From Rhodocyclaceae bacterium (GTDB lineage Bacteria > Pseudomonadota > Gammaproteobacteria > Burkholderiales > Ga0077523): a DNA stretch of 64,000 nucleotides. Of this stretch, positions 4,014 to 9,177 are shown one piece after another. A program made the translations under genes and the position numbers. Position 1 is the first letter of the stretch, and every line of letters begins with the position of its first letter. The DNA lies in the NCBI GenBank assembly GCA_020248405.1, contig JADCHQ010000011.1, forward strand, positions 1 through 64,000, in the 5' to 3' direction. The notes under the pieces were generated by a model. It worked only from the letters and a program-made list of their open reading frames with translations. It ran no database searches and was not told the DNA's origin.

Positions 4014-5471
4014 ATGGCCGCCCCACTGCACACCCTGCCCGCCCATCGCCTCGCCGCCCTGATCCGCGCCCGCAAGGTGGGCAGCCTTGAGCTGCTGGAC
4101 CACTTCCTCGCGCGCATCGCCTCCTACGACGGCGCCCTCAAGTCGGTGTGCGTGCTCGATACCGATCGCGCCCGCAAGCGTGCCCGGGCTGCCGACCGGG
4201 CGCTGTCAAAGGGCGAGCGGCGCGGCCCGTTGCACGGCCTGCCCATGACGGTGAAGGAGTCCTTCGACGTGGCCGGCCTGCCCACCACCTGGGGCCGCCC
4301 CAACCTGAAGGGCAACGTGCCCGCCACCAACGCCCGCGCCGTGCAGTGCCTGTTGGATGCCGGCGCCGTGATCTTCGGCAAGACCAACGTGCCCGCCCTG
4401 CTGGCCGACTGGCAGACCTTCAACCCGCTGTACGGCACCACGTGCAATCCCTGGGACCCGAGCCGCGGGCCCGGAGGCTCCTCGGGCGGCGCCGCCTCCG
4501 CGCTGGCAGCGGGCCTCACCGGGCTGGAGCTGGGCAGCGACATCGGCGCCTCCATCCGCAACCCGGCCCACTTCTGCGGCGTGTACGGTCACAAGCCCAC
4601 CCGGGGCGTGGCCTCTGCCGAGGGCCAGACGCTGCCGCCCTTCATCACCGACAACGACATCGCCGTGATCGGCCCGCTGGCGCGCAGCGCCCGCGACCTG
4701 GAGATCGCCCTGCAACTCATGGCCGTGCCCGACGCCATCGACGCGCGCGGCGTGCGCATCGCCTTGCCCAGGCCGAAGCCGCGCGCCTGGCGGCAGTGGC
4801 GCGTGGCGGTGATGGACACGGCCGACACCGCGCCAGTGGACGCCGCGGTGCGCGAAGGCATCGGGCGCGTGGCGGGGTTCCTGCGCCGTCGGGGCGCCAA
4901 AGTCAGCCACACCGCCCGCCCCGCCATCGACCGGCACGAGGCCCATCGCGTGTACGTGCTGCTGCTGCGCGCCGCCACCTCTCGCAACCAGTCCGACGCC
5001 GACTTCGCCCGCAACCTGGAGAAGGCAAGGCGCCTGCCCCGCGACGCCACCGGCTACGCCGCCTGGATGCTGCAGGCCAACACCCTGCACCATCGCGAGT
5101 GGCACCAGCTCAACGAAGCGCGCCATCACATGCGACTGGCGTGGGAGGCGTTCTTCCGCGACTGGGACGTGCTGCTGTGCCCGGCCGCCGCCACCACCGC
5201 CTTCCCCCACAACCAGGCCGGCGAGCGCTGGGAGCGCATGGTGATGGTGGACGGCACCCCCCAGCCCTCCACCACGGCACTGTTCTGGGCGGGGTTTTCC
5301 GGCATGGCCGGCCTGCCCTCCACGGTGATCCCAGCCGGGCTGGCGGCCGACGGCCTGCCCACGGGCGTGCAGATCGTGGGGCCGCAGTACGGCGACCTCA
5401 CCACGCTGGCGCTGGCGTGCGCCCTGGAGACGGATTTCGGCGGCTTCCAGCCGCCGCCGGCCTACGCCTGA
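4014..5471 (+). CDS. Amidase-signature family hydrolase
   Basis: The 485-residue enzyme has the Ser-cisSer-Lys machinery of the amidase-signature family: Lys81 in MTVKESFDV, the Gly/Ser-rich GPGGSSGGAAS (residues 153 to 161) supplying the cis-Ser, and Ser180 in GSDIGASIR as likely nucleophile. Such enzymes hydrolyse carboxamides such as indoleacetamide, nicotinamide or aryl amides. No GatB or GatC lies nearby, so it is not the tRNA amidotransferase subunit. The ATG at 4014 is preferred because similarity begins a few residues in; an ATG at 3966 would add 16 unconserved residues. The 3' end overlaps the convergent helicase gene by 10 bases. The substrate cannot be read from sequence. Confidence 0.88.
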   Translation: MAAPLHTLPAHRLAALIRARKVGSLELLDHFLARIASYDGALKSVCVLDTDRARKRARAADRALSKGERRGPLHGLPMTVKESFDVAGLPTTWGRPNLKGNVPATNARAVQCLLDAGAVIFGKTNVPALLADWQTFNPLYGTTCNPWDPSRGPGGSSGGAASALAAGLTGLELGSDIGASIRNPAHFCGVYGHKPTRGVASAEGQTLPPFITDNDIAVIGPLARSARDLEIALQLMAVPDAIDARGVRIALPRPKPRAWRQWRVAVMDTADTAPVDAAVREGIGRVAGFLRRRGAKVSHTARPAIDRHEAHRVYVLLLRAATSRNQSDADFARNLEKARRLPRDATGYAAWMLQANTLHHREWHQLNEARHHMRLAWEAFFRDWDVLLCPAAATTAFPHNQAGERWERMVMVDGTPQPSTTALFWAGFSGMAGLPSTVIPAGLAADGLPTGVQIVGPQYGDLTTLALACALETDFGGFQPPPAYA

Positions 5472-7414
5472 GCGCTTGGTACGGCCGCGGCTTCGGCTTC
5501 GAGAAAGGCCACGGCCTCGGCCTCGTGGCGGCTGCGGCGCATGGGCGGCAGGCTCTGCCAGACCCGCCGGCCATAGGCCTTGGTGACCAGCCGCGGGTCG
5601 CAGATCATGAGCACGCCGCGATCGGTCTCGTCGCGGATCAGCCGTCCCGCGCCCTGCTTGAGCTGGATCACCGCCTGGGGCAGCTGGTAGTCCATGAAGG
5701 CATTGCCGCCGGCGGCATTGATGCGCTCGATGCGCGCCGTGAGCACCGGGTCGTCCGGCGGCGCAAAGGGCAGCCGGTCGATCACCACCAGCGACAGGGT
5801 TGGACCGCGCACATCCACCCCCTCCCAGAAGGACTGGGACCCCACCAGCACCGCATTGCCCAGCCGGCGGAAGCGCGCCAGCAGCTCGGTGCGCGAGCCA
5901 TCGCCCTGCATGAGCACGGGCAGCTCCAGGGCGCGCTCGCGCAGCGCCTCCTCGAGCAGCGTGCGCGCCTCGCGCATGGCCCGCAGGCTGGTGCACAGCA
6001 CGAAGGCGCGCCCGCCCGCAGCGATGATGAGCGGCAAGGCGGCGCGCACCACGGCCTCGGTGTAGCCGGCCGAGTTCGGCTCGGGCATCTCCTCGGGGCA
6101 GTACAGCAGCGCCTGGTGGGGGTAGTCGAAGGGACTGTCCCAGGCGCGGGTGGCGGCTTCATCCAGGCCGAGCTGCGCGGTGTAGTGGGTGAAATCGCCC
6201 TTCACCGACAGGGTGGCGGAGGTGAAGATCCAGGCGCGCGGCTGGGCCGCCAGCTGGCGCGCGAACACCTCGCCCACCGACAGCGGCGTGGCGTGCAGTT
6301 GCAGACCGGCGGGAAACACCTCCATCCAGCGCACGTGCTGGGCATCGTCGCCGGTGCGCCAGCGTTTCAGGCGTTGCAGCTGGTCGCAGGCGCGCACCCA
6401 GGCGCGCTGCAGCCCCTCGCTGCGATCGGCCTGGAATTCCAGCAGCGAGGACAGGTGCTCGAGCTTGGTCCACAGGGCCTCCAGCGCCGCCACGAAAGCC
6501 TCGCGGCCCAGGGCCGCCGACGCCGGCAGCCGGCCCTGCTCGGCCTGCCACGACAGGCGCAGGTCGCGCACCGCCTTCTCCAGCGCCAGGGCCGCCTCCG
6601 GCAGGGCAGCGAAATCCTGCGCCGCGGCCACCGCTTCCAGCCGCGCGTCCCGCGCCAGCTCGATCAGCTGCACCGAGGAGACCGTTTCGCCGAAGAACAG
6701 ACTGGCGGTCTCGGGCAGTTGGTGAGCCTCGTCCAGAATCACCGTGTTGCACGACGGCAGCAGCTCGGCCACGCCCTCGTCGCGCAGCACCACGTCGGCG
6801 AAGAACAGATGGTGGTTCACCACCACCACGTCGGCCTCCAGCGCCGCCTTGCGCGCCTTCATGACGAAGCACTCGTCGAAGTACGGGCACTCGGAGCCCA
6901 GGCAGGTGTCGCGTGTGGAAGTCACCCGCGACCAGATGCCCGCGTCCTCGGGCACCGTGCCAAGGCCGCTGCGATCGCCCGTGTCGCTCACCCGGGCATA
7001 GCTCACGATCTCGCCCAGGTAACCCACGTCGGCGCGGCTGTCGAAGCGCCCATCGGTCTTGGCGCGCTCCAGGTGGTATTGGCAGACGTAGTTGGCGCGT
7101 CCCTTCAGCAGCGCCAAGCTCGCGTGCACGTCCAGCGCGGCGCGCACCATGGGCAGGTCGCGCCCGAACAACTGGTCCTGGAGGGTCTTGGTGCCCGTGG
7201 ATACGATCACCTTGCCGCCCGACAGCAGCGCCGGTACCAGGTACGCGAAGGTCTTGCCGGTGCCCGTACCGGCTTCGGCCACCAGCACTCCGTGGCTGGC
7301 GATGGCCGCCTCGATGGCCAGCGCCATCTCGAGCTGCTGGGCGCGCGGCCGGTAGCCGGGCACGGCGCGCGCCAGCGGGCCGTCGGCGGCGAAGACGCGC
7401 GTGAGATCGTTCAC
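5462..7414 (-). CDS. DinG/YoaA-family ATP-dependent DNA helicase (XPD-like)
   Basis: This is a superfamily-2 helicase of about 650 residues with an iron-sulphur domain. Walker A is AEAGTGTGKT (residues 47 to 55). Cysteines 111, 171, 176 and 182 (YVC and TCLGSECPYFDEC) fit the four 4Fe-4S ligands. The DEAH box is at 228-231 (VILDEAHQL). A C-terminal motif VI QGAGRLIRDETDRG is present. YoaA and DinG unwind DNA 5' to 3' and act on damaged or R-looped DNA at stalled forks. YoaA, about 640 residues, is the closer size match. The start is uncertain. I used the GTG at 7414 (VNDLTRVFAADG), the first in-frame start before conserved sequence; the frame stays open upstream to 7588 with low-complexity residues. 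Confidence 0.88.
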   Translation of the reverse strand: MNDLTRVFAADGPLARAVPGYRPRAQQLEMALAIEAAIASHGVLVAEAGTGTGKTFAYLVPALLSGGKVIVSTGTKTLQDQLFGRDLPMVRAALDVHASLALLKGRANYVCQYHLERAKTDGRFDSRADVGYLGEIVSYARVSDTGDRSGLGTVPEDAGIWSRVTSTRDTCLGSECPYFDECFVMKARKAALEADVVVVNHHLFFADVVLRDEGVAELLPSCNTVILDEAHQLPETASLFFGETVSSVQLIELARDARLEAVAAAQDFAALPEAALALEKAVRDLRLSWQAEQGRLPASAALGREAFVAALEALWTKLEHLSSLLEFQADRSEGLQRAWVRACDQLQRLKRWRTGDDAQHVRWMEVFPAGLQLHATPLSVGEVFARQLAAQPRAWIFTSATLSVKGDFTHYTAQLGLDEAATRAWDSPFDYPHQALLYCPEEMPEPNSAGYTEAVVRAALPLIIAAGGRAFVLCTSLRAMREARTLLEEALRERALELPVLMQGDGSRTELLARFRRLGNAVLVGSQSFWEGVDVRGPTLSLVVIDRLPFAPPDDPVLTARIERINAAGGNAFMDYQLPQAVIQLKQGAGRLIRDETDRGVLMICDPRLVTKAYGRRVWQSLPPMRRSRHEAEAVAFLEAEAAAVPSAQA

Positions 7415-7641
7415 GGGGTGCAAGGTCAGCGGCGGGCGGCGCCAGGGCGGGCAGGCTGCGGGGTGCCGGATGGGGATCGACTCACCCGCGAAGCATGGCG
7501 CAGGGCCCGCGCGCGGGCAATACCAAAGGCACGGGCGTTCCGTGGCCAGCCCCCCCTCCCCGCGGGAGCACACGCCTCGGCCCGGCACGGCGCAGGTATG
7601 CTGCCGGTTTCGCCAGTCTGCCCGTGTGCCGGAGCGCCTTC

Positions 7642-8331
7642 ATGAGCACCCCCTCGCTGCCCCTTGCCGGCCACCGCATCCTGCTCACCCAGGCTGGCGA
7701 TTTCATGGGCCCCGCCCTGGCCCGCGTGCTTGCCGGCCAGGGCGCCGAGGTGGTGGCCTCCCTGGAAACCCTCGATGCCCCGGGCGCGGCCGAGGCCGTT
7801 GTGCAGGGCGCCGGCACGCTGCATGCCGTGGTGGCCAACCTGGGCATTCCCGCGCCGGCCACGCCCGCCGACGCGGTGGACGATGCGCAGTGGCGCCACT
7901 GCTTCGCCACCATGGTGGACCCCCTGCCACGCCTGCTGCGGGCGGTGCTGCCGCAGATGCGCGAGCGGGGCGCGGGGCGCTTCCTGGTGATGGGCAGCGC
8001 CTCGGCGCTGCGCGGCATGAAGCGCACTTCCTCCTACAGCGCGGCGCGCGGCGCCCAGCTGGCCTGGGTGCAGGCCGTGGGCGTGGAGCTGGCGCCGCTG
8101 GGCATCCGCGTGAATGCCATTGCCCAGAACTTCGTGGACAACCCCACCTACTTCCCGCCCGCGGTGCAGGCCGACCCCCGCTTCCAGGAGCGCCTGCGGC
8201 GTGAAGTGCCGCTGGGCCGTCTGGTCTCGGCCGAGGAGGATGCCGCCTTCGCCGCCTACCTGCTGTCGGGGCCGGCCGACTGTTTCGCGGGACAGGTGTT
8301 CCCCGTGAGCGGCGGCTGGGCGGTGCGCTGA
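7642..8331 (+). CDS. Probable halohydrin dehalogenase (SDR-derived)
   Basis: The 229-residue protein has the short-chain dehydrogenase fold length but lacks both SDR hallmarks. The glycine-rich NAD(P) motif is replaced by Thr16-x4-Phe21-x-Gly23 (TQAGDFMG). The catalytic Lys is replaced by Arg in Ser119-x12-Tyr132-x3-Arg136 (GSAS...SYSAAR). These two patterns, T-x4-F-x-G and S-x12-Y-x3-R, are the published fingerprints of halohydrin dehalogenases, which convert vicinal halohydrins to epoxides and open epoxides with azide, cyanide or nitrite without a nicotinamide cofactor. The region NFVDNPTYFP (163-172) and the end GQVFPVSGGW also resemble HheC. GGAG lies about seven bases before the ATG. A methyltransferase gene follows after nine bases, so the two are probably co-expressed. 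The alternative is an orphan SDR with a lost cofactor site. Confidence 0.78.
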   Translation: MSTPSLPLAGHRILLTQAGDFMGPALARVLAGQGAEVVASLETLDAPGAAEAVVQGAGTLHAVVANLGIPAPATPADAVDDAQWRHCFATMVDPLPRLLRAVLPQMRERGAGRFLVMGSASALRGMKRTSSYSAARGAQLAWVQAVGVELAPLGIRVNAIAQNFVDNPTYFPPAVQADPRFQERLRREVPLGRLVSAEEDAAFAAYLLSGPADCFAGQVFPVSGGWAVR

Positions 8332-8340
8332 GAACGCGCC

Positions 8341-9177
8341 ATGTCCGGTTTCGTGCTCGATTTCTACGACCGCCTCGCGCCGGAGTACCACCTCATGTTC
8401 GCCGACTGGCGGGCAGAGGTGATGCGCCAGTCGGCGCTGCTCGCCCGCCTGCTGCGCGCCGAGGTGCCCGGCGCCAGTCACGTGCTCGACTGCGCCTGCG
8501 GCATCGGCACCCAGGCCATCGGCCTGGCGCGCGCGGGCTACCAGGTTACCGCCACCGACCTGAGCCCCGGCGCGCTGCAGCGCGCCCTCGAGGAAGCGCA
8601 ACACTTCCAGGTGGACCTGCGGTTCGCCACGGCCGACTTCCGCCGCCTGGAGGACGCGTTGCAGGACCGCTTTCACGTGGTGTGCTGCCTGGACAACGCC
8701 ATCGCGCACCTGCAGGAGGACCACGAGCTGCACGCCGCGTGCGCCTCCATGGCCAGGCGGCTGCACCCCGGCGGCCTGCTGGTGCTGAGCATCCGCGACT
8801 ACGACCGCATCTTCGCGCCCTGCTTCGCCGCCGCAGCCGACCCCGGCCTGCCCGGACTGCCCGGACTGGCCCGCGGCGGCGAGCAATCCCTGCCTGGCGG
8901 CACCCTGCCGCGGGTGTTCGACGGCCCGGACGGGCGGCGCATCGCCTTCCAGGTGTGGGACTGGAGCAAGGACCGCCGCTCCTACGCCGTGCACCAGTAC
9001 TTCGTGCACGGCGACGGGGACGCGCCGCGGGCCACGCACTACTCCTCGCGCTTCCGGGCGCTGCGCCGGGCCGAGCTGGGCGGCGCGTTGCTGGCCGCGG
9101 GGCTGCGCGAGGTGCGCTGGCTCATGCCGGAGCACGTCGGCTTCTACCAGCCCCTGGTGCTCGCACGCGCGCCCTGA
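8341..9177 (+). CDS. Class I SAM-dependent methyltransferase
   Basis: The 278-residue cytosolic enzyme has motif I VLDCACGIGTQ (residues 48 to 58), an acidic end to strand 2 (TATDLS) and a motif IV-like VVCCLDNAIAHL. The layout resembles glycine/sarcosine N-methyltransferases (LDCACGIGTQAIGLA), but the substrate cannot be assigned. A proline/glycine stretch, DPGLPGLPGLARGG, is an unusual low-complexity insert near residue 165. It lies nine bases behind the halohydrin dehalogenase candidate and is probably in its operon. The 3' end is convergent with mscS, 18 bases away. A link to small-molecule methylation alongside the dehalogenase is inference from position only. Confidence 0.8.
   Translation: MSGFVLDFYDRLAPEYHLMFADWRAEVMRQSALLARLLRAEVPGASHVLDCACGIGTQAIGLARAGYQVTATDLSPGALQRALEEAQHFQVDLRFATADFRRLEDALQDRFHVVCCLDNAIAHLQEDHELHAACASMARRLHPGGLLVLSIRDYDRIFAPCFAAAADPGLPGLPGLARGGEQSLPGGTLPRVFDGPDGRRIAFQVWDWSKDRRSYAVHQYFVHGDGDAPRATHYSSRFRALRRAELGGALLAAGLREVRWLMPEHVGFYQPLVLARAP

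Follow-up and report, generated by a model that had tools for sequence, protein, structure and literature searches.

What does the gene at 7642..8331 on the forward strand of the DNA analysed here (a stretch of 64,000 nucleotides from a Rhodocyclaceae bacterium, below called the window) encode? A first-pass annotation proposed an undocumented halohydrin dehalogenase (HHDH), with two family fingerprints, without the cofactor motif of short-chain dehydrogenases (SDRs) and with Arg for their catalytic Lys. The question is whether these features identify a dehalogenase, and if so which one. We conclude that the product is almost certainly a D-type halohydrin dehalogenase (halohydrin hydrogen-halide-lyase), as far as activity can be predicted. 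The D-type assignment is based on sequence, motifs, tree position and predicted fold.

Reading frame and fingerprints

The HheD-like gene (7642..8331, +) runs from ATG to TGA and encodes 229 amino acids. The sequence GGAG at 7631..7634 (+) is a possible ribosome-binding site. Since it lies 7 bases 5' of the ATG at 7642, this start is more plausible than the mechanical ORF start at 7495.

Two fingerprints of the family had been pointed out in the protein, and both are exact in the translated frame. Motif 1, TQAGDFMG (T16-x4-F21-x-G23, residues 16-23; 7687..7710, +), replaces the glycine-rich cofactor motif of SDRs; its meaning, a nucleophile or halide pocket, is taken from PMC11976700. Motif 2, SASALRGMKRTSSYSAAR (S119-x12-Y132-x3-R136, residues 119-136; 7996..8049, +), would supply the catalytic triad. 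A third element, the loop NFVDNPTYFP from N163 to P172 (8128..8157, +), is predicted by homology to line the halide pocket, and the C-terminal end reads GQVFPVSGGWAVR. The first-pass annotation likened this loop and end to those of HheC. Both elements are indeed present, but it is HheD2 that they equal (NFVDNPTYFP and GQVFPVSGGWAV). In an alignment of 50 homologues T16, F21, G23, S119, Y132, R136, N167, Y170 and P172 are all invariant.

Could this be an ordinary NAD(P)-dependent SDR in which HHDH-like motifs have arisen by chance? General Pfam and NCBIfam models do give the protein SDR names, as expected for any HHDH, and an HHDH-specific model was not returned by these searches, which therefore do not decide the matter. 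Yet among the SDR-named NCBIfam matches listed, none reaches its curated cut-off. The classical SDR signature (T-G/A-x3-G/A-x-G with Y-x3-K) is absent from the protein, where TQAGDFMG and YSAAR stand instead. Thus the cofactor motif is missing and the catalytic Lys is Arg, just as first described, whereas SDRs of the same genome keep both SDR motifs. Chance pairing of the two fingerprints had been called unlikely, and the numbers agree: when the protein was shuffled 200,000 times, both appeared together in 0.044% of the shuffled sequences, and roughly at their actual positions in 0.0005%. For a protein of SDR fold shuffled sequences are a weak control, so seven SDRs encoded in the same genome were compared as well. 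These are more telling on chance co-occurrence. All seven have an SDR-type motif 1 (TG/TA-x3-G-x-G) that contains no aromatic residue, plus Y-x3-K. The tree, the PDB search and the fold search described below also favour an HHDH, and we consider an SDR with fortuitous motifs extremely improbable.

Searches, tree and predicted fold

In a phmmer search against the PDB, HheD2 (7b73) comes first with an E-value of 1e-90, followed by 8xxb (6e-78), HheB (2e-47), 6a41 (1e-29) and HheG (2e-23); ordinary SDRs begin at about 1e-17. Entry 7b73 is HheD2 (PMC9629495), with which the Foldseek title agrees, and over the aligned stretch it is identical to a protein of the marine gammaproteobacterium HTCC2207. 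Entry 8xxb is, according to its Foldseek title, a triple mutant of HheD8 with chloride. Pairwise identity to our protein is 64% for HheD2 (222 residues), 57% for HheD8, 43% for HheB, 35% for 6a41, 31% for HheA2 and 26% for HheC. The HheA2 query sequence matches 1zmo over its whole length. The same-genome SDRs are 26-33% identical to the protein, a range that overlaps the HheA2 and HheC values, so that percent identity alone cannot separate distant HHDH subtypes from SDRs. Judged by sequence, the predicted D-type assignment is far above this noise. Clustering with HheD enzymes at no less than 57% identity marks the D subtype, a bound that comes from the range in PMC4989007; the protein clusters in this way, at 64% to HheD2 and 57% to HheD8.

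The first-pass annotation named a position among NAD(P)-dependent SDRs as the outcome that would count against an HHDH. In a maximum-likelihood tree of 36 proteins, with the seven same-genome SDRs in and HheE, HheF and HheG left out, the protein falls among the D-types, grouped with HheD2 and HheD8, and one branch (support 100/99) splits off all seven SDRs. Its neighbours are proteins of Piscinibacter sakaiensis and of Betaproteobacteria bacterium Ga0077523 (L004). HheB forms the next branch outside the D-types; HheA2, HheC and 6a41 lie together on another. Support for the node that unites the D-types is weak (83/77) and is 99/95 for the node that also takes in HheB; branches outside the D-types are long. 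We therefore make no claim on the relations between HHDH subtypes. Misassignment owing to the omission of HheE, HheF and HheG is unlikely, because HheG scores 2e-23 in the PDB search and HheD2 1e-90.

An AlphaFold2 model built with 50 sequences has a mean pLDDT of 84.9 and a pTM of 0.84. Foldseek ranks four chains of HheD2 (7b73) first, at a TM-score of 0.91, followed by HheD8, HheB and 6a41, with every dehydrogenase lower. Sequence and fold searches thus both place HheD2, HheD8 and HheB ahead of any dehydrogenase, which bears out the proposal of a halohydrin dehalogenase candidate, and the model supports a predicted HHDH fold. Its confidence drops in the active-site loops: residues 122-125 fall below a pLDDT of 50, and the blocks 121-130 and 161-190 lie at 55-68. 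The halide-pocket residues are conserved among the 50 homologues, while the pocket geometry is modelled at low confidence.

Distribution and gene neighbours

The first-pass annotation described halohydrin dehalogenases as rare, which does not hold for this group. One scan of GTDB genomes returned at least 208 relatives. The best 80 of these are 62-75% identical to the protein, and 80 of 80 have both fingerprints. They are mostly beta- and gammaproteobacterial; a few bins carry other labels. Of 12 genomes of the same genus, its own counted, ten have a single strong match, with an identity of at least 66%. In its own genome the next best match in a protein search is an ordinary SDR. D-types had been named up to HheD38 by a 2016 review, with HheD to HheD6 verified by experiment and HheD19-38 being 57-95% identical to those (PMC4989007). 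"Undocumented" is therefore right for the individual sequence and wrong for the subtype: the gene is new only as one more sequence of a D subtype that is already well described and common. Piscinibacter sakaiensis 201-F6 (L065) has a D-type HHDH that is 70% identical to our protein. Some D-type HHDHs (L032, L058, L079, L020) come from bins that carry the labels Desulfatitalea, Deltaproteobacteria and Kapaibacterium, through either transfer or mis-binning.

Do the neighbouring genes suggest a substrate? An ORF resembling SAM methyltransferases (8341..9177, +; PF13649) starts 9 bases past the HHDH stop and is possibly co-transcribed with the HHDH gene. Upstream and divergent lies a DinG/YoaA-like helicase gene (5462..7588, -; PF13307), which is not part of the system and whose listed start is probably too far upstream. 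Neither gene recurs beside homologues in tblastn searches, which included eight same-genus loci of 6.5-15 kb. Clustering of ORFs around the best 80 of the at least 208 homologues found no neighbour common to the whole family. The gene appears to stand alone amid differing contexts, and with no neighbours kept throughout the family, context reveals no substrate. Farther off in the window, the ORF at 1572-2192 looks by eye, from its translation, like a PhaR-type polyhydroxyalkanoate regulator, which fits a betaproteobacterial host.

Some relatives do share arrangements among themselves. In freshwater loci of Comamonadaceae type (L023, L026, L028, L030, L031, L038, L070 and, in part, L078) there is one that is absent from the window. 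A small conserved gene (RKxYPLxxEGRHPDRVLDAxKHxVRKYLKRERRR) precedes the HHDH gene by no more than about 10 bases, and between the HHDH end and a convergent gene for a secreted-looking alpha/beta hydrolase, named by eye, there are 1-2 bases. This arrangement could hint at function there. In the HheD2/Porticoccaceae group (L060, L044, L073, L077, L080 and, in part, L056) the HHDH gene is flanked by a GNAT-like gene on one side and, on the other, by a conserved gene whose product starts MSLIPEKP.

Predicted reaction and comparison with known enzymes

The Ser-Tyr-Arg mechanism and the roles of the motifs have been described (PMC4989007, PMC11976700). By analogy with HheC, HheD2 and their kin, we infer the same activity for the present protein, together with a tetrameric state. 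Ser119 would hydrogen-bond the hydroxyl of a vicinal haloalcohol, and Tyr132, its pKa lowered by Arg136, would accept the hydroxyl proton. The substrate oxygen would then attack the neighbouring carbon, so that the epoxide closes and the halide leaves into a pocket made up of motif 1 (T16/F21/G23) and the loop of residues 163-172. NAD(P) would be neither bound nor used in the reaction, because the halide pocket occupies the site where SDRs hold the nicotinamide. Since the reaction is reversible, halide, azide, cyanide and similar nucleophiles should be able to open epoxide rings.

What such an enzyme does for its host is a matter for speculation. One guess is that it detoxifies or uses haloalcohols together with an epoxide hydrolase from another part of the genome. 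The genome does encode an epoxide hydrolase of PF06441, on another contig; it also has a type II haloacid dehalogenase. These could process the epoxide or a haloacid further, which is compatible with a haloalcohol pathway and is not evidence for one.

Another suggestion keeps the HHDH fold and residues and supposes that the natural reaction of D-types is some other epoxide or alcohol chemistry with another nucleophile, dehalogenation being a side activity. There is a single D-type match per genome where searched, D-types occur in many genomes from varied habitats, and a haloalcohol gene neighbourhood was not found around D-type genes. We know of no alternative substrate for D-type HHDHs. The detoxification role is only "assumed" in the literature (PMC11536340), whereas the D-type enzymes tested to date show HHDH activity (PMC4989007), and we consider the suggestion rather unlikely. 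More doubtful still is its wider form, in which D-types, ours included, would be widespread proteobacterial enzymes whose true job is some epoxide or alcohol reaction of ordinary metabolism that has gone unrecognised, and not the dehalogenation of xenobiotics. Returning to the haloalcohol role: because D-types are common in Pseudomonadota and have no shared neighbourhood, its assumed form, detoxification, is worth testing in culturable species. With this gene, a family of use in biocatalysis also gains a further natural D-type sequence.

Among known enzymes, HheD2 (HTCC2207, 7b73, L060) is closest: it shares both fingerprints, the pocket loop and the C-terminal end, and is the best fold match. 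It differs in its host and in its gene neighbours, a GNAT-like gene lying upstream in HTCC2207. HheD8 (8xxb) belongs to the same subtype and is more distant at 57% identity; its pocket loop is NFVENPTYFP, and the deposited sequence is engineered. HheB (4zd6), of another subtype, has motif 1 with Tyr for Phe, as the family pattern T-x4-F/Y-x-G allows, and the pocket loop HWTQNKEYFWP. HheC (1pwx) and HheA2 (1zmo) share the fingerprints and the Ser-Tyr-Arg triad but represent other subtypes with other C-termini. The HheC loop (NYLHSEDSPYFYP) and end (TGQVFWLAGGF) are unlike those of our protein, and HheC is reported to share an operon with an epoxide hydrolase (PMC11976700), which the gene described here does not.
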